Below, piece after piece: positions 5,970 to 23,176 of a stretch of 51,329 nt of DNA. The stretch covers positions 1-51,329 of the forward strand of contig JAUZRU010000025.1 in NCBI GenBank assembly GCA_030950185.1, read 5' to 3'. The position numbers and the translations under genes are program-made. How positions within the stretch are numbered: position 1 is the first letter of the stretch; each line of letters opens with the position of its first letter. Below the pieces are notes generated by a model. That model saw nothing but the letters and a program-made list of their open reading frames with translations. It was not told the DNA's origin and ran no database searches. Source of the DNA: Paracoccaceae bacterium. Lineage in GTDB: Bacteria; Pseudomonadota; Alphaproteobacteria; Rhodobacterales; Rhodobacteraceae.

Positions 5970-6935
5970 ATGGTGGGTGGCAAAAGCATAAGAACCTCGG
6001 CCTTCGTGTTCGCGGTATTCCTGATCAGCGCAGGGCTGGCGCTGTGGGCTGCAAGCGGCGAGGACATCTGGAACGAGGTCACTCTGCTCGGCGGCCAGCA
6101 GGTGGTGGGCCTGCTGGCGCTGTCGCTTTTCAACTATCTTCTGCGCGCTCTGCGCTGGTGGCTGTATCTTGACGCGCTGCATGTGCGGCTGCGCCTGATG
6201 TCGGTGCTGCGGCACTATTTCGGCGGCTTTGCCCTGACCATGACCCCTGCCCGGCTGGGCGAGGTCGTGCGCATGCGCTGGATCAGCCGCGAAACCGGCA
6301 CAAGGCTGGAACATCTGGCACCGCTCGTGCTGGTAGATCGCGCGGGCGATCTGGCCTCGACCGGTCTGCTGCTGGCATTTGCGCTGGCCGCCGGTGCCGC
6401 GGGCATTGCGGGCGGGCTGCCGGTTGCCGTGCTTGCGGTGATCGCGGCGCTGGTCGTGACCCGGCCGGTGCTGTTTGGCGCCATGATCGACGGGCTGTAT
6501 CGGCTGGTGGGACGCAAGCCGCGCCTTTTCGTGCGGGCGCGCCGCGCCGCACGGGCCCTGCAACCCTTTTCGGTGCCGCGCATCGTGATCCCCGCCCTTG
6601 CCCTGGGCGCCCTGGGCTGGATGGCCGAGGGATACGCCTTTTACCTGCTGCTGGGCTGGCTGGGGGCCGATGTGCCACTGTGGAGCGCGGTTGCGATCTT
6701 TCTTTTTTCGATGATGACAGGCGGGGCCACCGGCATGCCCGGCGGTGTCGGCGGGGCCGAGGCGGCAATGGTCGCCCTGCTGGCCATACAGGGTGTGCCG
6801 CTGGAAATCAGCATTCCCGCAACCGCCATCATCCGCATCACCACACTGTGGTTCGCGGTCGCCCTTGGCATCATCACATTCCCATTGGCCGAAGGAATGG
6901 CCGCAAGGAGGGGAAATGCGCTGGAGAACGGATGA
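5970..6935 (+). CDS. Flippase-like membrane protein (UPF0104 / LPG-synthase TM-region family)
   Basis: This 321-residue polytopic protein has about eight hydrophobic helices and the family features of the lysylphosphatidylglycerol-synthase transmembrane region. These include a helix-breaking TPARLGEVVRMRW segment near residues 92-104 and a glycine-rich TGGATGMPGGVGGAEAAM stretch at about 250-267. Members are often called flippase-like, though few have a proven substrate. The start is taken at 5970; the ATG has no strong Shine-Dalgarno sequence. The 3' end overlaps the DprE1-like gene by 20 bases, so the two are co-translated. I infer that it may move a polyprenyl-linked sugar across the inner membrane, because the next genes make such a lipid. 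No aminoacyl-transferase domain is fused. Confidence 0.75.
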   Translation: MVGGKSIRTSAFVFAVFLISAGLALWAASGEDIWNEVTLLGGQQVVGLLALSLFNYLLRALRWWLYLDALHVRLRLMSVLRHYFGGFALTMTPARLGEVVRMRWISRETGTRLEHLAPLVLVDRAGDLASTGLLLAFALAAGAAGIAGGLPVAVLAVIAALVVTRPVLFGAMIDGLYRLVGRKPRLFVRARRAARALQPFSVPRIVIPALALGALGWMAEGYAFYLLLGWLGADVPLWSAVAIFLFSMMTGGATGMPGGVGGAEAAMVALLAIQGVPLEISIPATAIIRITTLWFAVALGIITFPLAEGMAARRGNALENG

Positions 6936-8238
6936 ATATGCCGGCTGGGGCCGCGTGTTGCGCGCGAACGGCAAGATGGCGCGACCGGAAAAGATTGCCG
7001 CGCTCAGGGCCACGCTGCGCGAGCAGAAATGCCCCGCGATCGGCAACCGGCGGTCCTATGGCGACGCGGCGCTGAAGGATGGCGGCCATGTGATCGACAT
7101 GACCCGGCTGGACCGGATGATTGCATTCGACGAAAAGACCGGCATCCTGCGGGCCGAGACGGGCATCACCATTGGCGAGATCACCCGCCTGATGGCGCCG
7201 CGCGGCTGGATTCCGGCTGTTCTGCCCGGCACCGGCTTTGCCACGCTGGGGGGCTGCATCGCCAATGACGTGCATGGCAAGAACCACCACGGTGCCGGCA
7301 GTTTCGGCCAGCATGTGGTGGAAATCGAGCTGCTGGGCGCGAACGGGCGCAGCCGGCGCATCACAAGTGACGAAAACCCCGATCTGTTTCGCGCCACCAT
7401 TGGCGGGCTGGGCCAGACCGGGATCATCCTGTCGGCCGCCATCCAGTTGACCCGTGCGACCTCGACCGTGATGGATGTACGCGAGAGCCGCGCCGACAAT
7501 CTGGATGAATTCATGTCACTGCTGGAAGGCTCGACCGCCACATATTGCGTCGGCTGGATCGACGCGACTGCGCGCGACGAAAGCCTGGGCCGCGGCATTC
7601 TGGAAGAGGCCGAGATTCGCGAACATGCGGTTCCAATCACCGAAAAGGGCGCGAAATCGGTGCCCCTTGATGCGCCCCGTTTCCTGCTGAGCGCGCCGGT
7701 CGTGCGCGCCTTCAACCAGCTCTATCTGCGCCGCGTTCCCCCGGGCGGGCGCAGGATCGACCGCTCCATGCAGGATTTCTTTTTTCCGCTGGACCGCGTG
7801 CATGACTGGAACCGCCTGTATGGCAAGCCCGGTTTTCACCAGTTCCAATGCGTGCTGCCCCCCGACAGCGCCCGCGAAACCCTGCACCGGATGATGGGAA
7901 AAATCGCCTCATCCCGGCTGGCCTCGCCGCTGGCGGTGCTGAAACGGCTGGGCGAGGGGCGTGGCGGCATGATGTCGTTCCCGATGGAGGGGTTCACGCT
8001 GGCCGTCGATTTCCCCAACCGGCGCGAAAGCGCGGGCTTGGTGCAAGAGCTGATCGATATGACCCTGACGGCCGGCGGGCGCATCTATCCGGCCAAGGAT
8101 TCCGTGGCGACCGCCGAACAGTTTTCCCCCATGTATGACGAACGCGCGGATTTCGCGGCAATCGCCAATGTGCAGGATCCGAACCGCGCGCTGGAAACCG
8201 ATCTGGTGCGCCGCCTGAACCTGAGGAACGAGACATGA
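6916..8238 (+). CDS. DprE1-like FAD-dependent oxidase (decaprenylphosphoryl-ribose 2'-oxidase family)
   Basis: A 440-residue VAO-type flavoprotein. The FAD-binding blocks are GNRRSYGD (43-50) and the glycine-rich LPGTGFATLGGCIANDVHGK region (103-122), followed by NHHGAGSFG. The C-terminal IYPAKDS motif carries Lys394, at the position of the catalytic lysine (Lys418) of mycobacterial DprE1. That enzyme oxidises the 2'-hydroxyl of polyprenylphosphoryl-ribose to the keto form. By my recalled alignment the mycobacterial Cys387 position is Ala363 here (LAVDFP). The ATG at 6916 follows AAGGAGGGGA. The gene overlaps the flippase-like gene upstream and the SDR downstream (ATGA), so the three form a tight operon. 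General sugar-lactone oxidases are more distant alternatives. Confidence 0.85.
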   Translation: MRWRTDEYAGWGRVLRANGKMARPEKIAALRATLREQKCPAIGNRRSYGDAALKDGGHVIDMTRLDRMIAFDEKTGILRAETGITIGEITRLMAPRGWIPAVLPGTGFATLGGCIANDVHGKNHHGAGSFGQHVVEIELLGANGRSRRITSDENPDLFRATIGGLGQTGIILSAAIQLTRATSTVMDVRESRADNLDEFMSLLEGSTATYCVGWIDATARDESLGRGILEEAEIREHAVPITEKGAKSVPLDAPRFLLSAPVVRAFNQLYLRRVPPGGRRIDRSMQDFFFPLDRVHDWNRLYGKPGFHQFQCVLPPDSARETLHRMMGKIASSRLASPLAVLKRLGEGRGGMMSFPMEGFTLAVDFPNRRESAGLVQELIDMTLTAGGRIYPAKDSVATAEQFSPMYDERADFAAIANVQDPNRALETDLVRRLNLRNET

Positions 8239-8972
8239 AACAGAGCTGGCTGATCCTTGGGGCAAGTTCCTCGATGGCGCGCGCATTCGCCCGCGCGGTG
8301 GCGGAACGCGGGGCAGATGTCTTTCTGGCGGGCCGCGACATGGATGATCTGCGCCGTATCGCCAATGACTGCCGACTGCGCGGTGCGGCAAATGCCGAGG
8401 CGCTGAAATTCGATGCGCGCAAACCAAAGACCTTTGACGCCATCAACGACAGGCTGGCCGAACAGGACGGCATGTTGAATGTCGCCGTATTCGTCGGCTC
8501 GATGCCCGAGCAGACCGCCATCGACGCCGACCCGGCCCTGATCGACGGCACCGTGACCGACAGCTTTACCGGCCCTGCCCGCTTTCTTCAGGGTTTCGTG
8601 CCCATGATGGAAGAACGCGGCGGCGGCACCGTCATCGGTATTTCCTCGGTCGCCGGCGACCGCGGGAGGATCGGAAACTATGTCTATGGCGCGGCCAAGG
8701 CGGGTTTCGCCACCTATCTTTCAGGCCTGCGCAACCGGCTGACGCGCGCGGGCGGCCATGTGGTGACGGTCAAGCCGGGTTTCGTGGACACCGCCATGAC
8801 CTGGGGGCTGCCTGGCATGTTCCTGGTCGCCAGCCCCGAATCCGTGGCCCGCGACCTGCTGCGCGCAACCGACAAGCGGCGCGACGTGATCTATACACCC
8901 TTTTTCTGGCGCTGGATCATGTTGATCATCCGCGCAATCCCCGAGCGCATGTTCAAGAAGATGTCGATCTGA
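8235..8972 (+). CDS. DprE2-like short-chain dehydrogenase (2-keto intermediate reductase)
   Basis: This 245-residue classical SDR has a nucleotide-binding motif GASSSMARA (9-17) and a catalytic set Ser137/138, Tyr151 and Lys155 in YGAAK. The C-terminus has an amphipathic, hydrophobic stretch (FFWRWIMLIIRAIPERMF) that could associate with the membrane, as expected for an enzyme acting on a polyprenyl lipid. In mycobacteria DprE2 reduces the 2'-keto intermediate made by DprE1 to decaprenylphosphoryl-D-arabinose. The four-base overlap (ATGA) with the DprE1-like gene supports that pairing. It ends 15 bases before the end of the convergent HAD-UbiA gene. The SDR family alone would not fix the substrate; context does. 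Confidence 0.8.
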   Translation: MKQSWLILGASSSMARAFARAVAERGADVFLAGRDMDDLRRIANDCRLRGAANAEALKFDARKPKTFDAINDRLAEQDGMLNVAVFVGSMPEQTAIDADPALIDGTVTDSFTGPARFLQGFVPMMEERGGGTVIGISSVAGDRGRIGNYVYGAAKAGFATYLSGLRNRLTRAGGHVVTVKPGFVDTAMTWGLPGMFLVASPESVARDLLRATDKRRDVIYTPFFWRWIMLIIRAIPERMFKKMSI

Positions 8973-8987
8973 TCGCGCCCCGGCGGC

Positions 8988-10415
8988 TCAGCTGCTGGCC
9001 GCCGAGAACATCAGGGCAAGCGTCAAGGCAATCAGCGCCAACCCGTATTTGTCGCGCAGAGCAAAGACGATCGGATCGTAATCCTGCTTGCCCTTCCAGC
9101 CCAGCAAGACCATGCGAAACAGCCAGCCACCCATCGGGATCATGGCCAGCCACAGCTGCCAGCGGCTGGGATACAGGATCGCCGCCATGTCGGAAAAACT
9201 GTACAGGAAAAACACCAGCAGCGCCCCTGCCATGCCGATGATGGCAATGTTCAGCAGATCACCCCGATCCCGACGCCCATAGCCCCGCCCCGGCAGGCGC
9301 GCTTCCCCCTTTGCCAAGGTCAGCTCGGTCAACCGCTTGACGCAGCCGAGCGTCAGAAAGACCGGATAGATAAAGGCGATCAGAAAACCCGAGGCAGGCA
9401 CATGGGCGGCAACCGCACCGGCCACGACACGCAGCGTGTAAAGCGCGGCCAGCATGGCAATATCTATCCACCTCATCCGCTTGAGCCGCAGCGAATAGGC
9501 CAGCGACAAGACCATGTACAACGCCAGAACACCCAGCATCATCGGGCCGATGATCGCGGCCAGCACAAGGGAATAGATCCCCAGCCCCACGGCCATCAGC
9601 ATCCCCCCCTTTATCGGTACCTTGCCCGCGGCAAAGGGGCGGTTCTTCTTGGTCGGATGCAGTCGATCCGCCTCGAGATCCAGCAGATCGTTGACAATAT
9701 ATATTGTCGAGGCGGCCAGGCTGAAGGCCAGCGCCGCGAAGAAAACGATCATCATCGGCGCGTAATGCACCTGATGGGCCGCGATCAGAGGCAGGAAAAG
9801 AAGGATGTTCTTGACCCACTGGTGGGGCCTGAGCGCGCGCAGCAGGTCGCGTGCGTTCCATGTCTGGCGGATTTCCTCGACATTGACGCCCTTGGCAGCC
9901 AGCCGTCGGGCAACCTTGGGCAGGTGCCCAACGATAATCGCGTTTTCGGCCTGCTCCCAGACGGGCAGGTCAACCACGCTGTCACCGGCATAATCGAAAC
10001 CGCGTTCGCCAAACGCCCTGACCAGCGCCTCGGCCTTGCGCCGACCCGTAAGATTTGTCTTGCCGTCCGACGCCAATACACGCTCGGCAATCCCGTGTTC
10101 CTGAGCCAGCGCCTGCACCAGGCGTCTGTCGGACCCGGATGCAAGCACCACCTTGCGCCCCCGCCGTCGTGACCGGCGCGCAAGTTGCGCAACCTGTTCG
10201 TTGACCGGAAGCAACTCGACACGCAGCGAGGACAGCTCGGCCAGTTCGCGCTTGAGCGCCGCGCGATTGCCGAGATTGCGCAACACCGCCTTCAGGCATG
10301 CGATGGGCTTGCGGCCCAGTGCCGCCCAGAAGCTTTCGAACAGCAGATCCGTTTTCAGAAATGTCCCGTCCACATCCAGAACCAGCGGTTTGCCGCGCGT
10401 TTCATCTGTGTTCAT
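8988..10415 (-). CDS. HAD phosphatase-UbiA prenyltransferase fusion (DPPR synthase-like)
   Basis: A 475-residue two-domain protein. Residues 1-185 form a HAD-type hydrolase: LDVDGT (13-18) with Asp14/Asp16, LASGSD (91-96), and DYAGDSVVDLPVW (141-153). Residues 192-475 form a polytopic UbiA domain with the prenyl-diphosphate/Mg motif NDLLDLEAD (242-250) followed by RLHPTKKNRP, as in mycobacterial Rv3806c. That enzyme joins phosphoribosyl pyrophosphate to decaprenyl phosphate; a separate phosphatase then removes the 5-phosphate. The HAD domain may supply that step here (inference). The ATG at 10415-10413 gives a normal N-terminus; an upstream in-frame extension to 10571 looks non-coding. Convergent to the DprE2-like gene and divergent from the pilin locus. 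Confidence 0.83.
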   Translation of the reverse strand: MNTDETRGKPLVLDVDGTFLKTDLLFESFWAALGRKPIACLKAVLRNLGNRAALKRELAELSSLRVELLPVNEQVAQLARRSRRRGRKVVLASGSDRRLVQALAQEHGIAERVLASDGKTNLTGRRKAEALVRAFGERGFDYAGDSVVDLPVWEQAENAIIVGHLPKVARRLAAKGVNVEEIRQTWNARDLLRALRPHQWVKNILLFLPLIAAHQVHYAPMMIVFFAALAFSLAASTIYIVNDLLDLEADRLHPTKKNRPFAAGKVPIKGGMLMAVGLGIYSLVLAAIIGPMMLGVLALYMVLSLAYSLRLKRMRWIDIAMLAALYTLRVVAGAVAAHVPASGFLIAFIYPVFLTLGCVKRLTELTLAKGEARLPGRGYGRRDRGDLLNIAIIGMAGALLVFFLYSFSDMAAILYPSRWQLWLAMIPMGGWLFRMVLLGWKGKQDYDPIVFALRDKYGLALIALTLALMFSAASS

Positions 10416-10830
10416 CTTGCCCGTATTCCCGGTTTGTATTGTCCTGGCGGAGCGAAACCGTTTGTCGCGTACCGCGCCCACCGACTTATTGTCTTCAATT
10501 TGCACGAGATTCCCATCCAGAGCCAGATATTGGCACGAAAAATTGTGATGAAACCGCCATAAACTTGCCAAATAGTTGTATTCACAGTTATTGCCCCCTC
10601 ATCTGAACACACCCAACTTATTGTTTTTACATGATTTTAAAAAATTTTCCATTGCCTTGCGTTTTTTTCATTTTTTGCATTTCCGCGCCAAACTCTCGCC
10701 CAATTTTGCCGGCTATATAACACCATGTTGAAACGGCGGGCTGGTCGAAAACAGAGGCAAAACCAGCACTGATACGCCGATCAGCACCAAAGCGTGGAAA
10801 TGAACAAGCAAACCTATGGAGGGACCTAAC
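10416..10830 (+). promoter_or_regulatory. AT-rich intergenic control region upstream of the Flp pilin gene
   Basis: This 415-base gap separates two divergent units and holds no convincing gene. Bases 10560-10700 are unusually AT-rich for the window, with runs such as TTTTAAAAAATTTT (10635-10648) and CGTTTTTTTC. A TATATAAC -10-like box lies at 10714-10721, about 110 bases before the pilin ATG; no good -35 partner is visible at the usual distance. A strong Shine-Dalgarno ATGGAGGGA (10815-10823) precedes the pilin start. AT-rich leaders like this are common targets of MucR/Ros-type regulators in alphaproteobacteria, but no specific site can be claimed. Confidence 0.35.
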
Positions 10831-11019
10831 ATGTTCAAGCTTGCAAAAAACTTCAAGAATGACGAATCCGGCGCCGTAACCGTTGACTGGGTTGTCCTGA
10901 CCGCCGCCATCGTTGGCCTCGGCATTGCCGTTCTGGCAACCGTGTCGAGCGGCGTGCAGAACCTGTCGGGTGACATCAACACTCAGCTGTCGGGTCAGAA
11001 AATCTCGACCAAGTTCTGA
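10831..11019 (+). CDS. flp: Flp-type major pilin
   Basis: A 62-residue prepilin with a basic leader (MFKLAKNFKNDESG, 1-14), then the processed hydrophobic segment AVTVDWVVLTAAIVGLGIAV (15-34) and a short polar tail rich in Ser, Thr and Asn. TadV-type prepilin peptidase should cut after Gly14, leaving Asp5-Trp6 in place of the classic Glu5-Tyr6 of Flp pilins, a variant common in Rhodobacteraceae. The start at 10831 fits the GGAGGGA ribosome binding site. It heads the tad locus and is followed by a perfect 10-bp hairpin, which may make this the most abundant transcript of the locus. The tail (SSGVQNLSGDINTQLSGQ) offers several possible O-glycosylation residues, an idea tied to the arabinose genes next door. 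Confidence 0.88.
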   Translation: MFKLAKNFKNDESGAVTVDWVVLTAAIVGLGIAVLATVSSGVQNLSGDINTQLSGQKISTKF

Positions 11020-11043
11020 TAATCCGGAACGACAATCGCCAGG

Positions 11044-11069
11044 AAAGCCGCGCCGGAAAGCGCGGCTTT
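11044..11069 (+). terminator. Hairpin after flp (attenuator or terminator)
   Basis: Bases 11044-11053 (AAAGCCGCGC) and 11060-11069 (GCGCGGCTTT) form a perfect 10-bp stem with a six-base loop, 24 bases after the flp stop. The stem is followed by CGATCGTATTT, only a weak T-tract. It probably ends or stabilises most flp transcripts while letting some polymerase continue into the tad genes. Confidence 0.65.
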
Positions 11070-11182
11070 CGATCGTATTTCCCGGCAATCGGCATGGTTA
11101 TCCTTTCACGATCCGTCCACTTTCTCGCGTTAGTGTGGTCCAGAGCATGTGCCCTGAAGCAACCCGAACGCAGAGAACCCCA

Positions 11183-11368: not shown

Positions 11369-11452
11369 ATTGGGTTTTTCCGCAAAACGTGTATTCTGCG
11401 GGGAAGAAGGCAAAAACAAACAACTTGCAGGCAGTTCTTCCAGAGGCATGTT

Positions 11453-12289
11453 ATGCGTATCATTTTCGCGCTGATCCTGATCGTGGGCATGGGGCTTGCG
11501 GGCTTTGCCGTGTATATGGCGCAGGGCCGGTTCAGCCAGTACCAGACCGAGCTGGCCAAGCAGCAGCAGGCCCTCAAGCAGAATGTCCCCCTGAAACGGG
11601 TGTTCGTCAGCACCCGACCGCTTCGTTATGGCGAAAAACTGACCAAGAAAGACGTGCGTATCGTCGCCTGGCCGGAAAATGCTATCCCCGAAGGCGCATT
11701 CACCGACCCCAAGAAACTGTTTCCCGACAATGGCAAGCTGCGCACCGTGCTGCGCGCCATGGAAAAGGACGAGGCCATCCTTGCCGTCAAGGTCACCAAA
11801 CCGGGCGAGGACGCCAGCGTTGCCGCGCGCCTGGCGCCCGGAATGCGCGCCTTCACGATCAGGGTCGATGTGGCATCCGGCGTTTCCGGGTTCCTCAGAC
11901 CCGGCGACCGCGTCGATGTGTACTGGAGCGGGCGCATCGACCAGCGCGACGTGACCAAGCTGATCCTTGAAAACATCAAGTTGATCGCCGTGGACCAGAT
12001 CGCCAATGGCGACCAGAACAAGCCGGTCGTCGCCCGCACCGTGACCGTTGAGGCATCCCCCGAGATCGTCGCAGCCCTGGTACAGGCCCAGGCGACCGGA
12101 CGGTTGCTGCTGTCGCTGCGCGGGGCCAATGACAATTCAAAGGCCGGACAGATCGAGATCGACCAGGACCAGCTGCTGGGAATCAAAAAGGAAGTTGTCA
12201 AGAAGGTGCAGGAAAAGAAGAAATGCACGATCAAGCTGCGCAAGGGCGCAGATATTGTGGAAAGCCCCATCCCCTGCCCCCAGAACTAG
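11453..12289 (+). CDS. cpaB: Flp pilus assembly protein CpaB/RcpC
   Basis: A 278-residue protein with an N-terminal membrane anchor (residues 2-22) and a SAF-like domain at about 46-110 (STRPLRYGEKLTKKDVRIV), followed by the RcpC/CpaB beta domain containing GFLRPGDRVDVYW. CpaB acts in the periplasm with the secretin CpaC during Flp pilus export. The ATG at 11453 is preceded by AGAGG. It is the first assembly gene after the pilins. A highly charged C-terminal segment (KKEVVKKVQEKKK) and two cysteines (CTIK, IPCPQN) could form a disulfide. A 160-base gap to cpaC shows no clear terminator. Confidence 0.9.
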   Translation: MRIIFALILIVGMGLAGFAVYMAQGRFSQYQTELAKQQQALKQNVPLKRVFVSTRPLRYGEKLTKKDVRIVAWPENAIPEGAFTDPKKLFPDNGKLRTVLRAMEKDEAILAVKVTKPGEDASVAARLAPGMRAFTIRVDVASGVSGFLRPGDRVDVYWSGRIDQRDVTKLILENIKLIAVDQIANGDQNKPVVARTVTVEASPEIVAALVQAQATGRLLLSLRGANDNSKAGQIEIDQDQLLGIKKEVVKKVQEKKKCTIKLRKGADIVESPIPCPQN

Positions 12290-12449
12290 ACCCGCATCGT
12301 GATGCAACCGCCACAACGGTTGCGCGCATGACGCAGAAGTTGTGCTGCGCAACCATTTGATTCTTGAAAAAAAACGGTATCTGGGCCACACTGTGCGCAA
12401 CGGGCGGTCAAGACCCGCATATACAACGTGATCAGAGAGGCAGGATCAC

Positions 12450-13877
12450 ATGCGTTCGAGCAGCTTTTTCAGGGCTGGCCTTGTTGGTCTGGCCATTGTC
12501 GTGCAACCCGTCTTGCCGGCGGGCGCGCAGGATGTTTTGACCATCAGCCGGGGCACCGCTTCCAGCAGCATCAAGGTTTCCGTCAACCGTGCGGTCGTGA
12601 TGGAAAGCGCCACATCATTCGCCCAGCTTTCGGTGGCCAACCCGGCAATTGCAGATATTTCCACCCTTTCAGACAAGAGCATCTATATCCTTGGAAAATC
12701 GCCGGGGCGAACGACCCTGACCCTTCTTGACAATGCGGGCCGCCTGATCACGAATGTTGATGTTCAGGTCTCGCCGGATATCGCCGAATTCAAGGAACGC
12801 CTGCATGAAATCCTGCCTGGCGAAAAGATAGACGTGCGCACCGCCAATGACGGCATCGTCCTGAGCGGCCGTGTTTCCGGCACACGAAAGGTTGCTCTGG
12901 CGGTGGAGCTTGGCGAACGTTATGCGCCCGGCAAGGTCACGAATCTGATGACCGTGGGCGGCACGCAGCAGGTCATGCTCAAGGTTCGATTTGCCGAAAT
13001 GCAGCGCTCGGTCTCGAAAAGCCTGTCCTCAAGTCTGGGCCTGAGCACCAGCGTCGCCGGCACCACCGGCCTGCAGGGGGGCACCGGGTCATATACCGGC
13101 TCGTTCAACCCAACGGTCCTGACCGATGGCATCCCCACCACCGGCCCGGTGGTCAAGACCACCACACTGGGGAGTCTCGGCATCGGCTTCAGCGCCGGGG
13201 GCATACAGATGGCGCTGCTGCTGGAAGCACTTGAAAAGAAGGGTCTGGTGCGAACCCTGGCTGAACCGAACCTTGTCACCATTTCCGGACAAAGCGCGAA
13301 ATTTCTTGCAGGCGGTGAATATCCCATCCCCATTTCGGACGGCCAGACGACGACCATTGAATACAAACCATTCGGCGTCGAACTCAATTTCAAGCCGGTC
13401 GTTGTCGATGACAACCTCATCAACCTGACGATCTCTGCCGCAGTCAGTTCAATCGATACGACCGTAACCGTCACCCAGAACGGCGGCATATCGGTCAACG
13501 CCTTCAAAAGGCGCGAGACCTCGACCGTTGTCGAAATGCGTGACGGGCAGAGCTTTGCCATCGCCGGCCTTTTGCAGGATGACTTTACCGGGCTGGCCAA
13601 CCAGGTGCCGTGGCTGGGCGACGTGCCGGTGCTGGGCGCACTGTTCCGCAGCTCTGACTTCAACCGCCGCCAAAGCGAGCTGGTGATCATCGTTACCCCG
13701 CATCTGGTCACTCCGGTCAAGAGCGACGCCCTTGCATTGCCGACCGACCGCGTCCGCATCCCTACCGAATCGGAATTGTTCCTGATGGGCAAGACGGCGG
13801 GAAAAGCCCGGAAGAAAGGCCATACCAGCGTCTCGACACAGGATATCAAGGCCCCCTATGGCTATGTGATGGAGTAA
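12450..13877 (+). CDS. cpaC: Flp pilus secretin CpaC/RcpA
   Basis: A 475-residue type II/III secretion-type secretin with a signal peptide ending near AGA-QD (about residue 27). The N-terminal pilus-assembly domain is followed by a BON-like region (about 105-175) and the secretin domain (about 230-420). The secretin core includes LAEPNLVTISGQSAKFLAGG and VPWLGDVPVLGALFRS. It should form the outer-membrane ring through which the Flp fibre passes. A GGAG sequence at its very end serves as ribosome binding site for the next gene, five bases downstream, so the two are coupled. Length and domain order are normal for the Tad family. Confidence 0.92.
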   Translation: MRSSSFFRAGLVGLAIVVQPVLPAGAQDVLTISRGTASSSIKVSVNRAVVMESATSFAQLSVANPAIADISTLSDKSIYILGKSPGRTTLTLLDNAGRLITNVDVQVSPDIAEFKERLHEILPGEKIDVRTANDGIVLSGRVSGTRKVALAVELGERYAPGKVTNLMTVGGTQQVMLKVRFAEMQRSVSKSLSSSLGLSTSVAGTTGLQGGTGSYTGSFNPTVLTDGIPTTGPVVKTTTLGSLGIGFSAGGIQMALLLEALEKKGLVRTLAEPNLVTISGQSAKFLAGGEYPIPISDGQTTTIEYKPFGVELNFKPVVVDDNLINLTISAAVSSIDTTVTVTQNGGISVNAFKRRETSTVVEMRDGQSFAIAGLLQDDFTGLANQVPWLGDVPVLGALFRSSDFNRRQSELVIIVTPHLVTPVKSDALALPTDRVRIPTESELFLMGKTAGKARKKGHTSVSTQDIKAPYGYVME

Positions 13878-13881
13878 GATC

Positions 13882-14553
13882 ATGGCTTTGCGCAACAGAA
13901 CCCGTTTCATCATTGCCGCAGCCGCGATCGCGCTTTCCGCCTGCACCCCGCAGCCGGCCGCCATGAACGGCGGTTTTGCAGCCAAGGGGCACGAGGCCGG
14001 CGGTCTTGTCAACGAAGGCGCATTTGGCAATCCGACCTACAACAACATGCTTGTCCAGGCGGCCTATCGCGACCAAAATGGCCTGCTTCTGGATCTGGGC
14101 CGAAAATTCGAGCGCGAAGTGCCGACCATGATCAATTTCGACTTCAACTCGGCGCGCCTCGATCCCGAGGCCAGGCGAATCCTCGACAAACAGGCCGAAT
14201 GGATCAAGCAGTTCCCGGAAATCCGTTTCCGTGTCTATGGTCACACCGATCTTGTCGGTTCCGAATCCTACAACAAGCGCCTTGGCCTGAAGCGGGCGCA
14301 AAATACCGTGGCCTATCTCGTCTCTCGCGGGGTTGACCGAAAGCGGCTTGAGGCAGTCGCCTCTTTCGGGGAAACCCAGCCACTTGTCGTCACCGAAGGC
14401 CGCGAAAGGCGCAACCGCCGCACCGTCACCCAGGTGATCGGCTTTGCCCGCAATTTTGCCGGTGACGATCTGGACGGGAAATATGCCGCGCTGGTTTATC
14501 GTACCTATGTTCAGGGCAATAACAGCGTGCCTGCTGCGACTGCTTCCAAATAA
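13882..14553 (+). CDS. OmpA-family outer-membrane lipoprotein of the tad locus
   Basis: This 223-residue protein has a lipoprotein signal with lipobox LSAC (cysteine at residue 22) and a C-terminal OmpA-like peptidoglycan-binding domain (about 90-195). The domain includes the block FDFNSARLDPEARRIL and the GHTD motif followed by NKRLGLKRAQN. It occupies the place where many tad loci carry the lipoprotein CpaD, which I do not see here, and may anchor the secretin to the cell wall (inference). The start at 13882 is preceded by GGAGTAAG overlapping the cpaC stop. A 189-base gap with no clear gene or terminator separates it from cpaE. Confidence 0.82.
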   Translation: MALRNRTRFIIAAAAIALSACTPQPAAMNGGFAAKGHEAGGLVNEGAFGNPTYNNMLVQAAYRDQNGLLLDLGRKFEREVPTMINFDFNSARLDPEARRILDKQAEWIKQFPEIRFRVYGHTDLVGSESYNKRLGLKRAQNTVAYLVSRGVDRKRLEAVASFGETQPLVVTEGRERRNRRTVTQVIGFARNFAGDDLDGKYAALVYRTYVQGNNSVPAATASK

Positions 14554-14742
14554 AGACACATTCCATCTTTCAGCCCTAATATTGCCAAAGTTTGCGGCCA
14601 CTAATCGCAGTTGGAAGACCCATCGTCAGATGTGGGAAACCTGCGAGCAAACCCTCATTGCCGAATCGGTGTCTTCCGTTTGGCTGGGGCAAGCATCCGC
14701 AGCAATCAAGCAAGAAACTTTTTTAGGGAATACGGGCAAGAA

Positions 14743-15975
14743 ATGGGTCTGCGAAAAACAGAGGAAGAGGTTGGCATCACCGCCTGCGTAATCGCGCGGG
14801 ACGTCAAGACCTTTGATCTCTTGATCGAAGACATGGAGGCGGAACTTGGCTCTGCCTGGGGCGGGTTGAACTTCGAAGACGGCATCGCCTTTCTTTCCAG
14901 CCCGTTGGCGCGCGAACTGGAATTCGTGACCGTCGCCGTCGATCGCACCGACGAAGAAAACCTGGAACCGGTCATCAAGGTGATCAAGACCGCAGAATCG
15001 GCAGGCATCAAGGTCATCCTCGTGGCCCATGACCTGTCACCGGTCGCACTGCATCAGCTGCTGCGCCTGGGCGCGGCCGATTTTGCCCCCTACCCCCTGC
15101 CCGAAGGTGCCCTGCACGAAGCGATCGAACGCATCCGAACCCCCGCCTCTCCGCCACTTGCGCCGGTCAGGGGCGGTGGCGCCGAAACCGTCCGCGACGG
15201 GGTAATCATGCCCGTCTACGGCCTGGCCGGCGGTGTCGGGGCCACGACATTTGCCGTGAACCTTGGATGGGAACTCTCTCGCATCAGCACAGGCGAAGGA
15301 TACAAGACCTGCATTCTGGACCTCGACCTGCAGATGGGGTCGGTTTCCACATATCTGGACCTGCCCCGACGCGAAGCCATCTTCGAACTGCTGTCCGACA
15401 TCGGCAGCATGGATCGCGAGACATTCATGTCGGCGCTGCAGCCGTTCAACGAAATGCAGGTTCTGACCGCGCCCGCAGAATCACTGCCCTACGAGATGCT
15501 GACGTCCGAGGACGTCAATGCCCTGCTGGACATGGCAAAATCGCAATTCGATTTCGTGATCGTCGATGTCCCGAAAACGCTGATCCAGTGGTCCGAGGTG
15601 CTGATCAATCGGGCAGATATCTATTTCGCGCTGATCGAGATGGACATGCGTTCGGCACAAAATGCCCTGCGCTTCATCCGCACGCTCAAGGCCGAGGATC
15701 TGCCTATGGAAAAGGTCAAGTATATCCTCAACCGTGCCCCGAAATTCACCGATCTCAGCGGCCGCAGCCGCGTCAAGCGGCTTGCAGAGAACCTGAATAT
15801 CGAACTTGAAATCCTGCTGCCCGACGGCGGCAAGGCTGTCGTTGACAGCTGCGATCAGGGTCTGCCGCTGGCCGAAACGGCGGCAAAGAACCCGCTGCGC
15901 AAGGACATGATGAAACTCGCCAAATCCATTTTCGACCTGGTCATTTCGCAGGCCGAAGCCAAAGGAGGTAAGTAG
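14743..15975 (+). CDS. cpaE: Pilus assembly ATPase-like protein CpaE/TadZ
   Basis: A 410-residue protein with an N-terminal response-regulator-like domain lacking clear phosphorylation residues (about 15-130) and a C-terminal MinD/ParA-type ATPase domain. Its P-loop region is GGVGATT (163-169), which lacks the second lysine of a standard Walker A, as is common in TadZ proteins. TadZ helps place the Tad machinery in the cell, often at a pole. I use the ATG at 14743; an upstream in-frame start at 14611 would add a segment with no family resemblance. The stop is three bases before cpaF. Confidence 0.87.
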   Translation: MGLRKTEEEVGITACVIARDVKTFDLLIEDMEAELGSAWGGLNFEDGIAFLSSPLARELEFVTVAVDRTDEENLEPVIKVIKTAESAGIKVILVAHDLSPVALHQLLRLGAADFAPYPLPEGALHEAIERIRTPASPPLAPVRGGGAETVRDGVIMPVYGLAGGVGATTFAVNLGWELSRISTGEGYKTCILDLDLQMGSVSTYLDLPRREAIFELLSDIGSMDRETFMSALQPFNEMQVLTAPAESLPYEMLTSEDVNALLDMAKSQFDFVIVDVPKTLIQWSEVLINRADIYFALIEMDMRSAQNALRFIRTLKAEDLPMEKVKYILNRAPKFTDLSGRSRVKRLAENLNIELEILLPDGGKAVVDSCDQGLPLAETAAKNPLRKDMMKLAKSIFDLVISQAEAKGGK

Positions 15976-15978
15976 GAC

Positions 15979-17439
15979 ATGTTTTCCCGTTACAAGAAAA
16001 CGGCCGGGCGTCCTCTGCCCCAGCCAGAAGCGAAACCGGCCACCTCTGAAACAGCCACCCAAACTGTGGCACCACAACCGGCGCCGCAGCCGGCAGCCAA
16101 GGCACCGGAAACGCCCAAGCCCCGGCCCGCCGTGGTGCGGGGCCTTAGCGAAAAGGAACTCAAACGCCGTGAAAAGCTGGCCGAGGTGCGGGTAGAGCTG
16201 CACAAGCGCCTGCTGGACACGCTGAACCTTGCCGCGCTGGAGCACGCATCCGAGGCTGACCTCAAGCACGAAATCGCCGCGATCTGTGCCGACGGCCTGG
16301 CGGAAATGGACATCGTGCTGACGCGCGAGGAACGCGCCACCCTGCACCAGGAGCTGTATGACGAGGTCACGGGCCTCGGCCCGCTGGAGCCTCTGCTGCG
16401 CGATGACACCATCAACGACATACTGGTCAACGGCCCGAAACAGATCTTTGTCGAACGCGCCGGCAAGCTGGAACTCACCCCGGTGGTGTTCAAGGACGAC
16501 AAACACCTGATGCGGGTCATCGACAAGATCGTGTCGGCCGTCGGGCGCCGTGTCGATGAATCCAACCCATATGTTGACGCCCGCCTCAAGGACGGCTCGC
16601 GTTTCAACGCCATGGTGCCACCGATTGCGGTCGATGGCGCGTTGGTGTCGATCCGCAAGTTCAAGAAAGACAAGCTGGGCATCGACGAGCTGATCAAATT
16701 CGGCGCCTTCACCGAGGAAATGGCCATGTATCTGCGCGCCGCCGTTGGCGCGCATCTGAACATCATCGTGTCAGGCGGCACCGGCTCGGGCAAGACGACC
16801 ACGCTGAACGCGCTGTCATCCATGATCGCCGACAACGAACGCATCCTGACCATCGAGGACACGGCCGAATTGCAACTGCAACAGATTCATGTCGGCCGCA
16901 TGGAAAGCCGCCCCCCCAATGTCGAGGGCAAGGGCGAAGTCAGCCAGCGCGACTGTCTGCGCAACGCGCTGCGGATGCGCCCCGACCGCATCATCGTCGG
17001 CGAAACCCGCGGCGAAGAGGTGATCGACATGCTTCAGGCCATGAACACGGGCCATGACGGATCGATGACCACGATCCACGCCAACAGCGCCCGCGATGCG
17101 GTTTCGCGCCTTGAAAACATGGTGGCGATGGCCGGGATCGACATGCCGCTCAAGGCGGTGCGCGCCCAGATTGCCAGCGCCGTGCATCTGATCGTGCAGG
17201 CCAGCCGCCTGCAGGACGGCTCGCGCCGGATGGTTTCGATCACCGAGGTCACCGGCATGGAAGGCGACATCATCACCATGCAGGAAATTTTCCGCTTCAA
17301 GCGCTACGGGATCGACGAAAACGGCAAGGTGCTGGGCCATTTCGAACCCACCGGGATACGTTCACATTTTTCCGAACGCTTCAAATATTCGGGCTTTGAG
17401 CTGCCCAACCACATCTACACGCAGACCGCGGCACAGTAG
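15979..17439 (+). CDS. cpaF: Flp pilus motor ATPase CpaF/TadA
   Basis: A 486-residue type II/IV secretion ATPase. Walker A is [10 protein letters not shown] (265-274), followed by a Walker B-like region with [13 protein letters not shown], a histidine box containing [13 protein letters not shown], and the usual CpaF N-terminal helical domain with [11 protein letters not shown]. It should power both extension and retraction of the Flp pilus from the cytoplasmic face. The first 55 residues are rich in Pro, Ala and Gln and probably disordered. AAAGGAGGTAAGTAGGAC overlaps the cpaE stop and serves as ribosome binding site. Tightly spaced within the tad operon. Confidence 0.94.
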
Positions 17440-17450
17440 GAGGCCGATCA

Positions 17451-18416
17451 ATGCTGAACCCCGAACCGATCATCTACGCCGCCATCTTCCTGGGCGTTCT
17501 GTTGGCAGTGGAAGGTATCTACCTGCTGGTCTTTGGCGACTCTATCCGCATGAACAGCCGGGTAAACCGCCGGATCGACATGCTGGAAAAGGGCACCGAT
17601 CGCGAGCAGGTTCTGGAAACCCTGCGTCGCGAACGCGAGCAGCACAAATCATGCTCGCGCATTCCGCTGTTGTCGATCATCAGCGACCGGGCAGACAAGG
17701 CCAAGATTGCCTTCAGCCCCAAGGCGCTGATCATGATCATGGTCTTTCTCAGCGTCGCGGCCTTCCTGGCCCTGAGTTTCGGCACCTCGGCATCCTTCCC
17801 CATTCGCCTGGGGCTGGCCCCGGTCATGGGTGTCGGTGCGGTCTATATGTGGCTGAACAAGAAGGCCAAGGCCCGCATGGCGCTGATCGAGGAACAATTG
17901 CCTGATGCGGTTGAACTGATGGTGCGCAGCCTGCGCGTCGGCCATCCGTTTTCAAGCGCCGTGAACATCGTGGCGCAGGAAGTGGCCGACCCGCTGGGCA
18001 CCGAATTCGGCATCATCGCCGACGAGGCTGCCTATGGCATGGACATCACGGAATCGCTGAACAACATGGCGGAAAGTATCGGCCTGCAAGACCTGCGCTT
18101 TCTGGCTGTGGCGGTGAACATCCAACAGAAATCGGGCGGCAACCTGGCCGAGATCCTGGAAGGCCTGGCCAAGGTGATCCGCGCGCGTTTCAAGCTGTTC
18201 CGCCGGGTCAAGGCCATCACGGCCGAGGCGAAATGGTCGGGGATGTTCCTGTCGTTTTTCCCGCTGCTGGCACTGATCGGCATCAACCTCGCGCAGCCGC
18301 ACTATTACGACAAGGTGATGGAAACCGAATTCTTCATCCCGGCAGTGCTGGTCGTGGGCGTGTTTCTGGGCATCAACATCATCTTCATGCGGATGATGGT
18401 CAACATCAAGGTATAG
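17451..18416 (+). CDS. tadB: Flp pilus inner-membrane platform protein TadB
   Basis: A 321-residue type II secretion F-domain protein with an N-terminal transmembrane helix, two central helices (about 95-145), the T2SSF domain (LPDAVELMVRSLRVGHPFSS near 155) and C-terminal helices. With TadC it forms the inner-membrane platform around which the CpaF motor works. An AGGAGGCC ribosome binding site precedes the ATG at 17451, 12 bases after cpaF. Length and helix pattern are normal. Confidence 0.92.
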   Translation: MLNPEPIIYAAIFLGVLLAVEGIYLLVFGDSIRMNSRVNRRIDMLEKGTDREQVLETLRREREQHKSCSRIPLLSIISDRADKAKIAFSPKALIMIMVFLSVAAFLALSFGTSASFPIRLGLAPVMGVGAVYMWLNKKAKARMALIEEQLPDAVELMVRSLRVGHPFSSAVNIVAQEVADPLGTEFGIIADEAAYGMDITESLNNMAESIGLQDLRFLAVAVNIQQKSGGNLAEILEGLAKVIRARFKLFRRVKAITAEAKWSGMFLSFFPLLALIGINLAQPHYYDKVMETEFFIPAVLVVGVFLGINIIFMRMMVNIKV

Positions 18417-18428
18417 GGGGCTGAAACC

Positions 18429-19409
18429 ATGGACCTGATGAACACGGCAATGGATTTCCTGGTCGCCCAGTTCGGCCCGATGGGGCCGTTCTACGCGATC
18501 GGTGCGCTGGGTCTGCTGCTGGTGGGGGGCACGATCCCGTTCCTGTTGCAGAAAAAGACCGACCCGGTGGATCGCCTCAAGGCGCAATCCGGCCCCCAAC
18601 CCAAGGTGCCCCAGGAAAAGGAACAGCCCAAGCTGCGCTTTCAGGAAAGGGGCCCCAACCTCGACAAGTTCGCGGCATTCCTCGAACCACAGGATCAGGA
18701 AGCCTATTCCGCCACCCGGCTGAAACTGATTCAGGCCGGCTATCGCAGCCAACATGCCGTGCGCACCATGCATTTCGCCCAATTCGCGCTGGCCATCGGT
18801 TTTCTGATCGTCGGCGTTCTGGTGGCACTGATCCGTATGGACAGCATGAATCTGCAATCGACATTGATGACCATACTGGTACCTGGGGCAGTCGGGTATT
18901 ACCTGCCCATCTACTGGGTCGAACGCCGACGCCAGACCCGCCAGCAAAACCTGACCGAAGGCTTTCCCGATGCGCTTGACCTGATGCTGGTCTGTATCGA
19001 GGCCGGCCAGTCGCTTGACCAGTCGATCCAGCGCGTCGCCACCGAGATCCGCCCCGGCTACCCGGACCTGTCCGAGGAATTCGAAATCGTCGCCAGCGAA
19101 ATGAAGGCCGGCAAGGACCGCGTCAACGTGCTGCGTGACATGGCCGAGCGCGCGGGTTCACAGGACATTTCCGCCTTTGTCACGGTGTTGATCCAGTCGG
19201 CCAGTTTCGGCACGTCGATTTCCGAGGCCCTGCGCGTCTATGCCGCCGAAATGCGTGACAAGCGCGTGATGCGGGCCGAGGAAAAGGCGAACAAGCTGCC
19301 CACCAAGCTGACCCTTGGCACGATGATGTTTACATTGCCGCCCTTGTTGATCATTCTGATCGGGCCGTCGATCTACAACATCTATCTGACGCTGACTGCG
19401 GGGAAATGA
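18429..19409 (+). CDS. tadC: Flp pilus inner-membrane platform protein TadC
   Basis: A 326-residue T2SSF-domain protein with one N-terminal helix (15-35), a charged cytoplasmic segment (40-100), two helices (about 115-160), the F domain (EGFPDALDLMLVCIEAGQSL near 175) and a C-terminal helix. It is the partner of TadB in the Tad platform. The ATG at 18429 lies 12 bases after tadB and is preceded by GGGGGC. The stop is one base before the GTG start of the next gene, again indicating coupling. Confidence 0.92.
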   Translation: MDLMNTAMDFLVAQFGPMGPFYAIGALGLLLVGGTIPFLLQKKTDPVDRLKAQSGPQPKVPQEKEQPKLRFQERGPNLDKFAAFLEPQDQEAYSATRLKLIQAGYRSQHAVRTMHFAQFALAIGFLIVGVLVALIRMDSMNLQSTLMTILVPGAVGYYLPIYWVERRRQTRQQNLTEGFPDALDLMLVCIEAGQSLDQSIQRVATEIRPGYPDLSEEFEIVASEMKAGKDRVNVLRDMAERAGSQDISAFVTVLIQSASFGTSISEALRVYAAEMRDKRVMRAEEKANKLPTKLTLGTMMFTLPPLLIILIGPSIYNIYLTLTAGK

Positions 19410-19410
19410 C

Positions 19411-19998
19411 GTGAAAATCAGGGTGGGGACCCTTGCCTTTCTGACGATGCTGACAGCCTGCCAGACAACAACCGGCGGGCTGGGCGCGCAACGAACCGAG
19501 CCGCCTGCAGGGCAGTCGCATCCGCCGGTTTCACGGGGGGCGACTGACAATCTTGCACTTGGCCATCAGCTGATGGCAGCGGGCCGGTATGATCAGGCCC
19601 TTGACGCCTATATTCGCGCAACCGGACGATACGGGCTGACGGCCGAGCTGCTTAGCGCGATGGGCTCGGCCAATCTCAAGCTTGGGCGGCTGCATGAAGC
19701 CCGCAAGCTTCTGGAAATCGCTGTCAAAAGGGATCCGAAATCCGTTCCGGCATGGAACAACCTTGGCGTGGTGCTGATGGAGCTGGGCCAGGATGGCGAG
19801 GCCAGGCGGGCTTTTCGCATTGCCTACGGGCTGGATAACGGCAGTTCCGACCTGATCCGCAAAAATCTGCGTATTTCTATCGCAAAAATGAAAAATCCAT
19901 CGTATGATGCGGACAACAATAAAAAATACAGCCTGGTCCGCAGAGGCAACGGACAATATCTGTTGCTGCGCGCGTCAGGCGGGAATGTCGAGCAGTAG
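19411..19998 (+). CDS. tadD: TadD-like TPR lipoprotein (first copy)
   Basis: A 195-residue protein with lipobox LTAC (cysteine at residue 17) and about three tetratricopeptide repeats between residues 48 and 150 (such as AWNNLGVVLMELGQDGEARR). TadD lipoproteins are needed for Flp pilus assembly, probably as pilotins of the secretin. The start is GTG at 19411, one base past the tadC stop; GGGGAAATGAC upstream supports it. The C-terminal 40 residues are basic and lack TPR character. Confidence 0.82.
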   Translation: MKIRVGTLAFLTMLTACQTTTGGLGAQRTEPPAGQSHPPVSRGATDNLALGHQLMAAGRYDQALDAYIRATGRYGLTAELLSAMGSANLKLGRLHEARKLLEIAVKRDPKSVPAWNNLGVVLMELGQDGEARRAFRIAYGLDNGSSDLIRKNLRISIAKMKNPSYDADNNKKYSLVRRGNGQYLLLRASGGNVEQ

Positions 19999-20013: not shown

Positions 20014-20871
20014 ATGCGACTTTTATCCGTGACCACCATTGTCATCGGGGCCGCACTGGCGTTGTCGGGATGCAGCAAGTTCCAGGCACCAACCGCGGAC
20101 AAGAAGATTGACGCGCTCAACGTCATTGATGCATCCAACCTGAATGACATCATGCTGACCGTTGCCGATCCGAACGAGGCCGTTACCTATTTTCAGAAAG
20201 CCCTCAAGAAAGAGCCGGACCGGATAGAATTCAAGCGGGGGCTGGCTCAATCCCTCGTCAGGGCAAAACGTGCCTCAGAGGCGGTTCTGATATATGCCGA
20301 TATCTTGAAATCGGGCAACGCCTCGAATGAGGACCGGGTGAACTATGCTGATGCCCTGATCCGCACCAATGAATGGGCGCTGGCTGAAAAGCAGCTCAAC
20401 GACACCCCGCCAACCTATGAGACCTACAAGCGCTATCGCCTTGAGGCGATGATCGCCGACAGCCACAAGAAATGGAAAAAGGCGGATGCGTTCTATGAAA
20501 CCGCGGCGGGCCTGACGACAAACCCGGCCCCGGTGCTGAACAACTGGGGATATTCCAAGCTGACACGCGGCGATTACAAGGCCGCCGAAAAGCTGTTCCT
20601 CGAGGCCATTACCTATGACCCCAAGATGTTCACTGCCAAGAACAACCTTGTCATGGCACGGGCCGCGCAGGGCAAATACACATTGCCTGTCATTCGCATG
20701 ACCCAGGAAGAGCGCGCCAAGCTCATGTACAGCATCGCGGTTCTGGCCATCAAGAACGGTGATGACGACGTGGCGCGCAACCTGCTGCAACAGGCCATCG
20801 ACACGCATCCCCGATATTTTGCTGACGCGGTACGCACACTTGAATCGCTGAATCAGCGTGCGGGAATCTGA
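20014..20871 (+). CDS. TadD-like TPR lipoprotein (second copy)
   Basis: A 285-residue protein with a signal peptide and lipobox LSGC (cysteine at residue 20), followed by several TPR units (about 60-200 and 225-280) including PVLNNWGYSKLTRGDYKAAE. It is longer than the first TadD-like protein and only distantly similar. AGAGGAAG at 19997-20004 precedes the ATG. Two TPR lipoproteins in series are common in alphaproteobacterial tad loci; the second may act with the secretin or pseudopilins. Its function is not further resolved. Confidence 0.82.
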   Translation: MRLLSVTTIVIGAALALSGCSKFQAPTADKKIDALNVIDASNLNDIMLTVADPNEAVTYFQKALKKEPDRIEFKRGLAQSLVRAKRASEAVLIYADILKSGNASNEDRVNYADALIRTNEWALAEKQLNDTPPTYETYKRYRLEAMIADSHKKWKKADAFYETAAGLTTNPAPVLNNWGYSKLTRGDYKAAEKLFLEAITYDPKMFTAKNNLVMARAAQGKYTLPVIRMTQEERAKLMYSIAVLAIKNGDDDVARNLLQQAIDTHPRYFADAVRTLESLNQRAGI

Positions 20872-20887: not shown

Positions 20888-21382
20888 ATGACCAGCCTTG
20901 AATGGGCCGCTTTGTGGCTGTTGGTTCCGGCCGTTCCGGTCGCGCTGTGGATCGCGTGGAGCGATCTGAAATACATGAAGATCCCCAACAAGGCAGTGTT
21001 GGTCATGCTGGGTGTCTTTCTGGTTTTCGGGCTGGTCGCCCTTCCCCTTGACGAATATCTGTGGCGGCTGGTCAACTTTCTTGTCATTCTGGCGATCGGC
21101 TTTGTCCTGAACGCCCTGCGTCTTGTCGGCGGAGGAGACGCAAAATACGCGGCCGCCATTGCGCCTTTCTTTGCCGTGTCGGATCTGCGGGGGGTGATGT
21201 TGCTGTTTGCGGTCATGCTGCTGGCTGCGGTGCTCATGCATCGCATCGCGCGCAGGCTGGCCTTTGTTCGCAACCTCGCCCCTGACTGGGAATCCTGGAA
21301 ATCGGGCAAGGCCTTTCCCATGGGGCTGGCACTGTCCGGAACACTGCTGTTCTATCTCGCCCTGCGTGTCGCTGCACCTTAA
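20888..21382 (+). CDS. cpaA: Prepilin peptidase TadV/CpaA
   Basis: A 164-residue polytopic A24-family aspartic peptidase. The two catalytic aspartates lie in WSDLKYMKIPN (first, residue 24) and GGGDAK (second, at about 83). It should cleave the leader of Flp pilins after the conserved glycine at the cytoplasmic face. It lacks the N-methyltransferase half of PilD, as expected for TadV. It is the last gene of the tad unit, and ends 23 bases before the end of the convergent GT-C-like gene. Confidence 0.9.
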   Translation: MTSLEWAALWLLVPAVPVALWIAWSDLKYMKIPNKAVLVMLGVFLVFGLVALPLDEYLWRLVNFLVILAIGFVLNALRLVGGGDAKYAAAIAPFFAVSDLRGVMLLFAVMLLAAVLMHRIARRLAFVRNLAPDWESWKSGKAFPMGLALSGTLLFYLALRVAAP

Positions 21383-23031: not shown

Positions 23032-23176
23032 CCCTGCCCCCTGTTTACTTTCGGGCAATCTTACAACGCCAGACTTGGCGATGCAAAAGGGCTTGGCGGT
23101 TTTTGTTGTTGATCGGGGGCTTGACGGCTAAACTCCGCCGAAAAACCACAAATATGGTCAGGGAAACGAGGCAGAC

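Follow-up and report, generated by a model that had tools for sequence, protein, structure and literature searches.

Why would an alphaproteobacterium carry, side by side, relatives of the mycobacterial enzymes that make a lipid-linked D-arabinose, and on what would that sugar be placed? In this class of bacteria D-arabinosylation is known from the Nod factors of Azorhizobium (noe genes). The question is raised by contig C86 of a 2.55 Mb Paracoccaceae genome, and the window referred to below is the whole of this 51,329-nucleotide stretch. An earlier note had described four adjacent open reading frames as encoding a flippase-like membrane protein, a DprE1-like oxidase, a DprE2-like reductase and a UbiA-type phosphoribosyltransferase, and had read them as the source of a lipid-linked pentose for a surface glycan. 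All four reading frames are present (Table 1) and the pathway to polyprenyl-phosphate D-arabinofuranose is, judged by sequence, very probable, but the generic surface glycan yields to a more particular acceptor, as the linkage data favour the Tad (Flp) pilus. It is proposed with moderate confidence that the donor module and a predicted GT-C glycosyltransferase glycosylate the Tad pilus with D-arabinofuranose, where sugar, lipid and acceptor are all putative. The phosphatase fused to the phosphoribosyltransferase, the neighbouring Tad locus and the GT-C gene at its far end did not figure in the earlier note and are added here.

Candidate enzymes for a lipid-linked D-arabinose donor

The genes of the flippase candidate, the oxidase and the reductase overlap by 20 and 4 bases respectively, and the UbiA gene is convergent with all three. 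The closest PDB sequence to the oxidase is DprE1 (4aut, E 1.3e-69), with the HGKNHH block aligned and the lysine of its YPAKDS motif aligned with that of YTAKDS in DprE1, and its best NCBIfam model by far is that of DprE1 (NF053785, 374 bits along nearly the whole model). A sugar-lactone oxidase can be rejected from the same scores, which fall to 50.5 bits for FAD-linked oxidoreductase and 45.3 bits for sugar-lactone oxidase. The cysteine within the DprE1 sequence GWNVCVDF, which we take to be the benzothiazinone target, is aligned to an alanine in the oxidase. The reductase contains the YGAAK motif and its closest PDB sequence is DprE2 (21gq_C, E 4.4e-20; runner-up 3.6e-16).

The UbiA protein, referred to below as the synthase, is closest in the PDB to a decaprenyl-phosphate phosphoribosyltransferase (8j8j; E 3e-30 as a single sequence and 3.8e-47 with a 17-member profile). 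Both motifs that had been quoted for it, NDLLDLEAD (residues 242-250) and HPTKKNRP (253-260), are present, and the N and D positions of NDxxDxxxD are invariant in 17/17 orthologues. The synthase reaches the unnamed fusion family PRK08238 (535.7 bits, cut-off 351) and scores 149.3 bits as a phosphoribosyltransferase, against 34.6 as a heme O synthase and 27.6 as a 4-hydroxybenzoate octaprenyltransferase, so that a quinone or heme prenyltransferase is likewise rejected. The NCBIfam scores gave neither of the two profile results that the earlier note had named as fatal to its reading, a better match of the oxidase to sugar-lactone oxidases or of the UbiA protein to quinone or heme prenyltransferases. 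A HAD phosphatase domain (PF12710) occupies synthase residues 12-152 and is followed in the same protein by PF01040; its residues D14, D16, K127 and D149 are invariant in 17/17 aligned synthases. This fused domain would supply the 5'-dephosphorylation step that the earlier list of enzymes lacked. The remaining protein, of the LPG_synthase_TM family, is encoded beside the oxidase in seven neighbourhood loci and falls outside the fetched stretch in the others; that it flips the lipid-linked pentose is a guess at a candidate role, made from its family and position.

The donor pathway has good sequence support, in that each enzyme finds its nearest PDB sequence in its mycobacterial counterpart. 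In the pathway proposed, the UbiA part of the synthase would make polyprenyl-phosphate ribose-5-phosphate and the HAD domain would strip the 5'-phosphate. The oxidase and reductase would then invert C2 to give the arabino epimer, the former by oxidising C2 of polyprenyl-phosphate ribose and the latter by reducing the product to the epimer, and the LPG_synthase_TM protein may finally move the lipid across to the periplasm.

The Tad locus, the predicted GT-C glycosyltransferase and their linkage to the donor genes

Adjoining the donor genes is a Tad pilus locus with Flp pilins, CpaB, a secretin, TadA, TadB/C and a prepilin peptidase, in which the pilins are assigned by motif and position and the TadA model stops short of its cut-off (Table 1). 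At the far end, convergent with the prepilin peptidase gene, lies the gene of a membrane protein for which NCBIfam gave no match at E 0.1 to any of 15 orthologues, Pfam gave three matches to the same orthologues (best E 0.0047, each in one or two members) and a PDB sequence search gave no match at E 10. It has no curated family by sequence, the GT136 and TfpW sequences lying outside the comparison. Modelling from 15 sequences predicts a GT-C fold (mean pLDDT 80.4, pTM 0.83). Foldseek returned ArnT as its best match (E 4.5e-4, probability 1.00), with ALG3, AftA, an oligosaccharyltransferase (OST) subunit, AftD, AftB and EmbA-EmbB at E 0.005-0.06. The VIA structure comparison placed AftA first (Z 11.6, 405 residues, 6.4 Å), PMT at 10.6 and ArnT at 10.4, with GT-C-type enzymes in nearly all of the first 30 rows (Z 11.6 to 7.8), values below a Z of about 13 being such as may stem from an arrangement common among helical proteins. 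Close to the N terminus, all 14 members that extend so far have an intact HxxDxxH motif, and D58 is present in 15/15. As the last step of the proposed pathway this protein would transfer arabinofuranose to Ser/Thr residues of the pilin, the pilin being a candidate chosen over other Tad parts.

In the GTDB genomes 297 relatives of the GT-C protein were found, the closest (96% identity) in a metagenome-assembled genome of a Rhodobacteraceae bacterium, and the protein is nearly absent from the class at large: besides the studied genome, a sample of 289 genomes that held few Rhodobacteraceae gave one weak match (E 3.9e-16). One genome (G182) carries two tandem GT-C copies at its Tad locus (L185:641-4133), and another (G078) has a second copy, 31% identical, in a stretch without Tad genes (L193:9425-11116).

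The neighbourhoods of the 80 best of the 297 relatives were read; their record titles give what we take to be Rhodobacteraceae genera, or merely a Rhodobacteraceae, Rhodobacterales, Alphaproteobacteria or Pseudomonadota bacterium. A CpaA homologue is in the stretch at 70 of the 80 loci and is the next labelled gene in 68 of these; two more loci have another Tad gene and three end at a contig edge. The gene order of the window recurs identically in seven other genomes, four of the same genus (L087, L093, L094, L095) and three of other genera (L084, L085, L086), with the flippase candidate beyond the fetched stretch in L084, L086 and L095 and the oxidase cut by the contig end in L095. The distance between synthase and GT-C is 12.2-15.3 kb, or one Tad-locus length, in 30 of the 51 genomes that have both; in G137 it is 13.8 kb. 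In genome G012 the Tad locus itself is split into halves 1.6 Mb apart, each still with its flanking glycosylation genes: the half at 2.29 Mb runs from secretin to cpaA and has the GT-C, and that at 0.69 Mb has pilins, cpaB and all four donor genes. Elsewhere the reductase and oxidase are found past the pilins and the synthase is at another place (G016), or pieces of the module are on separate contigs (G021, G005).

Co-occurrence was scored in 199 Rhodobacteraceae genomes, at least 90% complete and almost one per genus, with presence thresholds of E 1e-20 for the GT-C, 1e-40 for the synthase and 1e-30 for CpaB. The GT-C was found in 58 of them (57 of 198 sampled genera) and the synthase in 78, with both in 51, GT-C only in 7, synthase only in 27 and neither in 114 (Fisher p ~5e-20, relatedness ignored). 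With a bar of 580 bits, chosen after the scores were seen and therefore descriptive, the GT-C accompanies 38 of the 39 synthases at or above it and 13 of the 39 below. CpaB occurs in 170 of the 199 genomes, comprising 56 of 58 with the GT-C and 114 of 141 without. Among 41 relatives, all 15 with a GT-C also have synthase and oxidase, and a near full-length synthase and an oxidase, full or fragmentary (G007 and G009 have only pieces of it, at contig ends), are found in the same 17. Partial synthase matches in G013, G037 and G029 (E 2e-52 to 5e-28) come with no oxidase match, and donor genes without a GT-C are seen in G004 (77% complete) and G020.

The GT-C is not a standard part of every Tad locus. 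At 12/12 GT-C-negative loci, picked from 114 for their long contigs, cpaA runs straight into the gene of an AAA-type protein (the label is ours), and no donor gene is present in the fetched 20 kb, which extends 2-4.5 kb past the pilins. Ten of these 12 genomes have no synthase at all, and G020 and G202 have one elsewhere. When TadA, TadB and TadC of 35 loci are joined for one midpoint-rooted tree, no fewer than three changes of GT-C state are required; most negatives are surrounded by GT-C-positive rows, and the positives G090 and G073 stand among negatives. Our own reading, rather than a result of a tree that is rooted by midpoint only, is of an old module that was lost, with perhaps one regain.

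Pilin tails were compared after a motif search that identified pilins in 45 of the 47 GT-C genomes sampled and in 43 of the 46 Tad-positive genomes sampled without the GT-C. The Ser+Thr fraction is 0.302 with the GT-C against 0.249 without (p 0.003), and Ser/Thr number 2.52 against 1.42 among the final eight residues (p 1.2e-5); the largest count per genome is not clearly different (7.2 against 6.6, p 0.11). A count on fewer, unevenly divided pilins (54 against 13, with one locus counted double) points in the same direction, and a pilin pattern picked after the sequences had been viewed, hence descriptive, occurs in 34 of 45 GT-C genomes and 12 of 43 others. The pilins differ as lineages, which is compatible with C-terminal glycosylation and is not proof of it.

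From these distributions a wider proposition is put forward tentatively. In many genera of the Rhodobacteraceae the Tad pili may be O-arabinosylated at a pilin C terminus rich in Ser/Thr, by an undescribed GT-C that is almost confined to the family and draws on a D-Araf donor of mycobacterial type, the product of the adjacent genes. The module would be old, several lineages would have lost it whole, and one clade, described below, would have a non-UbiA ribose-lipid synthase.

Table 1. Features of the donor module, the Tad locus and the GT-C gene, with positions in the window
Feature	Position	Strand	Evidence
Flippase candidate, LPG_synthase_TM / flippase-like membrane protein, 321 aa	5970..6935	+	PF03706 144 bits (cut-off 33.4); TIGR00374 61.4 (cut-off 43.2)
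DprE1-like FAD oxidase, 440 aa	6916..8238	+	Best PDB match DprE1; NF053785
DprE2-like SDR (reductase), 245 aa	8235..8972	+	Best PDB match DprE2; PRK07102 above cut-off
Synthase, putative HAD phosphatase-UbiA phosphoribosyltransferase fusion, 475 aa	8988..10415	-	PF12710 and PF01040; PRK08238; 8j8j; catalytic motif columns
Flp-type pilin 1, 62 aa, tail ending in SGQKISTKF, candidate acceptor	10831..11019	+	Six-frame reading; similar pilins upstream of cpaB in relatives; weak Pfam match DUF4244 (E 0.0058)
Flp-type pilin 2, 61 aa	11183..11368	+	Similar proteins in relatives; no Pfam match at E 0.001
CpaB/RcpC	11453..12289	+	TIGR03177 225.6 (cut-off 71)
Tad secretin (CpaC/RcpA)	12450..13877	+	PF00263 and PF13629 above cut-offs
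OmpA-domain protein, CpaD position	13882..14553	+	PF00691
CpaE-like ATPase (ORF limits; true start possibly near 14743)	14611..15975	+	PF13614 above cut-off; MinD and CpaE-homologue models below
TadA/CpaF ATPase	15979..17439	+	PF00437; TIGR03819 344 bits (cut-off 373)
TadB	17451..18416	+	PF19360 and PF00482
TadC	18429..19409	+	PF00482
TPR protein, TadD position	19411..19998	+	TPR families
Second TPR protein	20014..20871	+	TPR families
CpaA/TadV prepilin peptidase	20888..21382	+	PF01478
Predicted GT-C, 550 aa membrane protein, candidate pilin arabinosyltransferase	21406..23058 (likely ATG at 23031)	-	Predicted fold; conserved HxxDxxH and D58

The AAA-type protein is encoded at 23177-24475 and its gene lies directly beyond the GT-C in 79 of the 80 GT-C loci; in Pfam it has a sub-threshold RNA_helicase match alone. 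Farther along the window are an ATP-sulfurylase/APS kinase fusion (48201-49988) and a Capsule_synth gene (PF05159, 50041-51327) that runs past the end of the sequenced stretch.

Counter-evidence and rival explanations

A number of observations weigh against an arabinosylated Tad pilus, beginning with the enzymes themselves. The profile check called for by the earlier note came out divided, as the DprE1 model is the best for the oxidase and PRK08238 is reached, yet the curated cut-offs for DprE1 (500 bits), DprE2 (NF053786, second for the reductase with 150 of 250 bits) and decaprenyl-phosphate phosphoribosyltransferase (149 of 207, 133 of 234 and 130 of 474 bits) are missed, and the reductase exceeds the bar of a generic SDR model (PRK07102, 271.5 of 267). 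As these NCBIfam cut-offs were missed, the oxidase, reductase and UbiA protein are, by sequence, relatives rather than members of the mycobacterial families. The fold of the GT-C model does not single out arabinose either, with PMT and ArnT within about one Z unit of AftA and OST within three. In four genera (G182, G090, G073 and G175; L185, L186, L187 and L188) the HAD part of the synthase is without its catalytic DxD, which suggests a separate phosphatase or a dispensable step. Tad is common in the family without the GT-C, which marks a subset. Of the 51 genomes with both synthase and GT-C, 21 have the two at greater distances or on separate contigs, and at 5 of the 80 GT-C loci the 2.9-10 kb fetched past the GT-C is free of Tad genes. 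In G134 (L179:13231-19901) the flippase candidate, oxidase, one TPR gene, cpaA and GT-C are kept, and the pilins, cpaB to tadC, reductase and synthase are gone. In the pilin tails the Thr fraction by itself is no different with the GT-C (0.162) and without it (0.152), and the contrast seen for Ser is about matched by those for Gly, His, Glu and Pro.

To these is added one supported clade of the Tad tree (G216, G161, G098 and G166; L178, L180, L182 and L183) that keeps the flippase candidate, oxidase, reductase, Tad genes and GT-C and has no recognisable HAD-UbiA synthase, the synthase profile giving no match better than E 4.8e-5 in the four genomes. An in-place replacement by another transferase is ruled out, as the synthase slot holds an SLT transglycosylase (by Pfam in L180, L182 and L183, by similarity in L178). 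There are two UbiA-family genes each in G216 and G161, as in the module-less G011, and four matches each, some of them fragments, in G098 and G166. Among the shared extra genes listed for the four loci, mostly antisense frames, no substitute synthase was seen. Either another enzyme feeds the pathway in this clade or the assignment is incomplete. In G119 and G167 the reading stops at contig ends.

An unlikely rival keeps the donor as proposed and makes a polysaccharide (lipopolysaccharide, capsule or exopolysaccharide) its main acceptor; the vicinity of Tad would then come from surface attachment being jointly regulated. The family has a second, more distant subfamily of synthases located away from Tad: at L189, L190 and L091 the synthase is together with oxidase and reductase, at L189 also with Poly_export and GT2 genes, and related genes may thus have polysaccharide targets. 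The studied genome has two other PMT_2-type genes elsewhere, and the Capsule_synth gene lies at the far end of the window. Against this stand the near-constant presence of the GT-C with synthases above the post hoc 580-bit bar, the lack of any polysaccharide-assembly gene among the Pfam-scanned genes at 5970-23058, and the GT-C genomes G012 and G137 without any PMT_2 match.

A lipid donor bearing ribofuranose or a different pentofuranose, the oxidase/reductase pair having some other role, is improbable. The missed DprE1 and DprE2 cut-offs would allow it, and three-component ribofuranose systems also have a HAD-PPPRS fusion and a GT-C (PMC11127046). Within the second subfamily, L191 and L192 (G202 and G105) have the synthase beside a PMT-type gene and no DprE1/E2 homologue in 20 kb, an arrangement as expected for a ribofuranose system. 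The contrast between these two loci and L189, L190 and L091 supports the oxidase and reductase as the arabinose step. D-arabinofuranose is further favoured by the nearest PDB sequences of the pair, by the presence of oxidase and near full-length synthase in the same relatives, and by the retention of oxidase and reductase even where a synthase is not found. There is also little probability that the modified part of Tad is the secretin, the OmpA-domain protein or an assembly factor instead of the pilin: the position of the GT-C beside cpaA and its co-occurrence with the entire locus would suit any Tad substrate equally, but C-terminal pilin Ser/Thr are more numerous in GT-C-positive genomes, though other residues differ too.

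Comparison with known systems

A synthase, a flippase (by family) and a GT-C are found at one locus, the GT-C across the Tad genes, and the locus thereby fits the three-component kind of pentofuranose system described in 2024, for which DprE1/E2 homologues are reported in the candidate Araf-glycan systems (PMC11127046). Type IVa pili of Pseudomonas paraeruginosa carry alpha-1,5-linked D-Araf by way of PSPA7_6245-6251, with TfpW encoded beside the pilin gene, and this is reported to result in phage resistance (PMC12369383). Like the system of P. paraeruginosa PA7/Pa5196, the present one would join a D-Araf donor pathway for a pilin to a dedicated GT-C, there TfpW (PMC12369383). It differs from that type IVa pilus system, with its separate phosphatase PA7_6246 (PMC11127046), in the Tad pilus and the fused phosphatase, and its donor genes flank the pilus locus, whereas those of P. 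paraeruginosa lie apart from the pilin cassette.

In the open-licence PMC literature on Tad/Flp glycosylation no report of an arabinosylated Tad pilus was found, and the main text of a paper on Rhodobacterales Tad (PMC8383342) makes no mention of arabinose, glycosyl, pilin, UbiA, oxidase or phage. For Flp1 of Aggregatibacter the same literature includes a paper on phosphorylcholine on Flp1 and a review in which the word glycosylated occurs. If the proposal is true, mycobacterial-type arabinose chemistry would act on Tad pili in numerous members of a large bacterial family, Tad-pilus glycosylation would gain an enzyme and an acceptor, and DprE1/E2-like enzymes and lipid-linked arabinose could be studied outside mycobacteria. 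It could then be tested whether pilus sugars shield the cell from pilus-binding phages, as reported for P. paraeruginosa. A new GT-C family would be defined, and the clade that keeps the rest without a recognisable synthase would pose a puzzle.

The fusion is shared with Citrobacter youngae ORF12/14/15 (GT136), where ORF15 is described with an N-terminal HAD phosphatase and a C-terminal PPPRS, alongside a flippase and a GT-C (PMC11127046). There, however, ribofuranose is placed on an O-polysaccharide and the flippase is of the MATE type, as opposed to the DprE1/E2-like pair, LPG_synthase_TM protein and Tad locus found here. The mycobacterial DPA (decaprenylphosphoryl-D-arabinose) pathway (Rv3806c, Rv3807c, DprE1, DprE2, Emb/Aft) provides the closest PDB sequences for three of the proteins, and the GT-C model matches AftA. 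That pathway serves cell-wall arabinan with a decaprenyl lipid, a phosphatase unrelated to the one found here and an SMR-type exporter (PMC11127046). The LPG_synthase_TM class of the flippase candidate thus differs from both the MATE and the SMR exporters of that description. What sets the present locus apart is the Tad pilus, a GT-C without a curated family, the class of exporter and a coupling conserved in one bacterial family.

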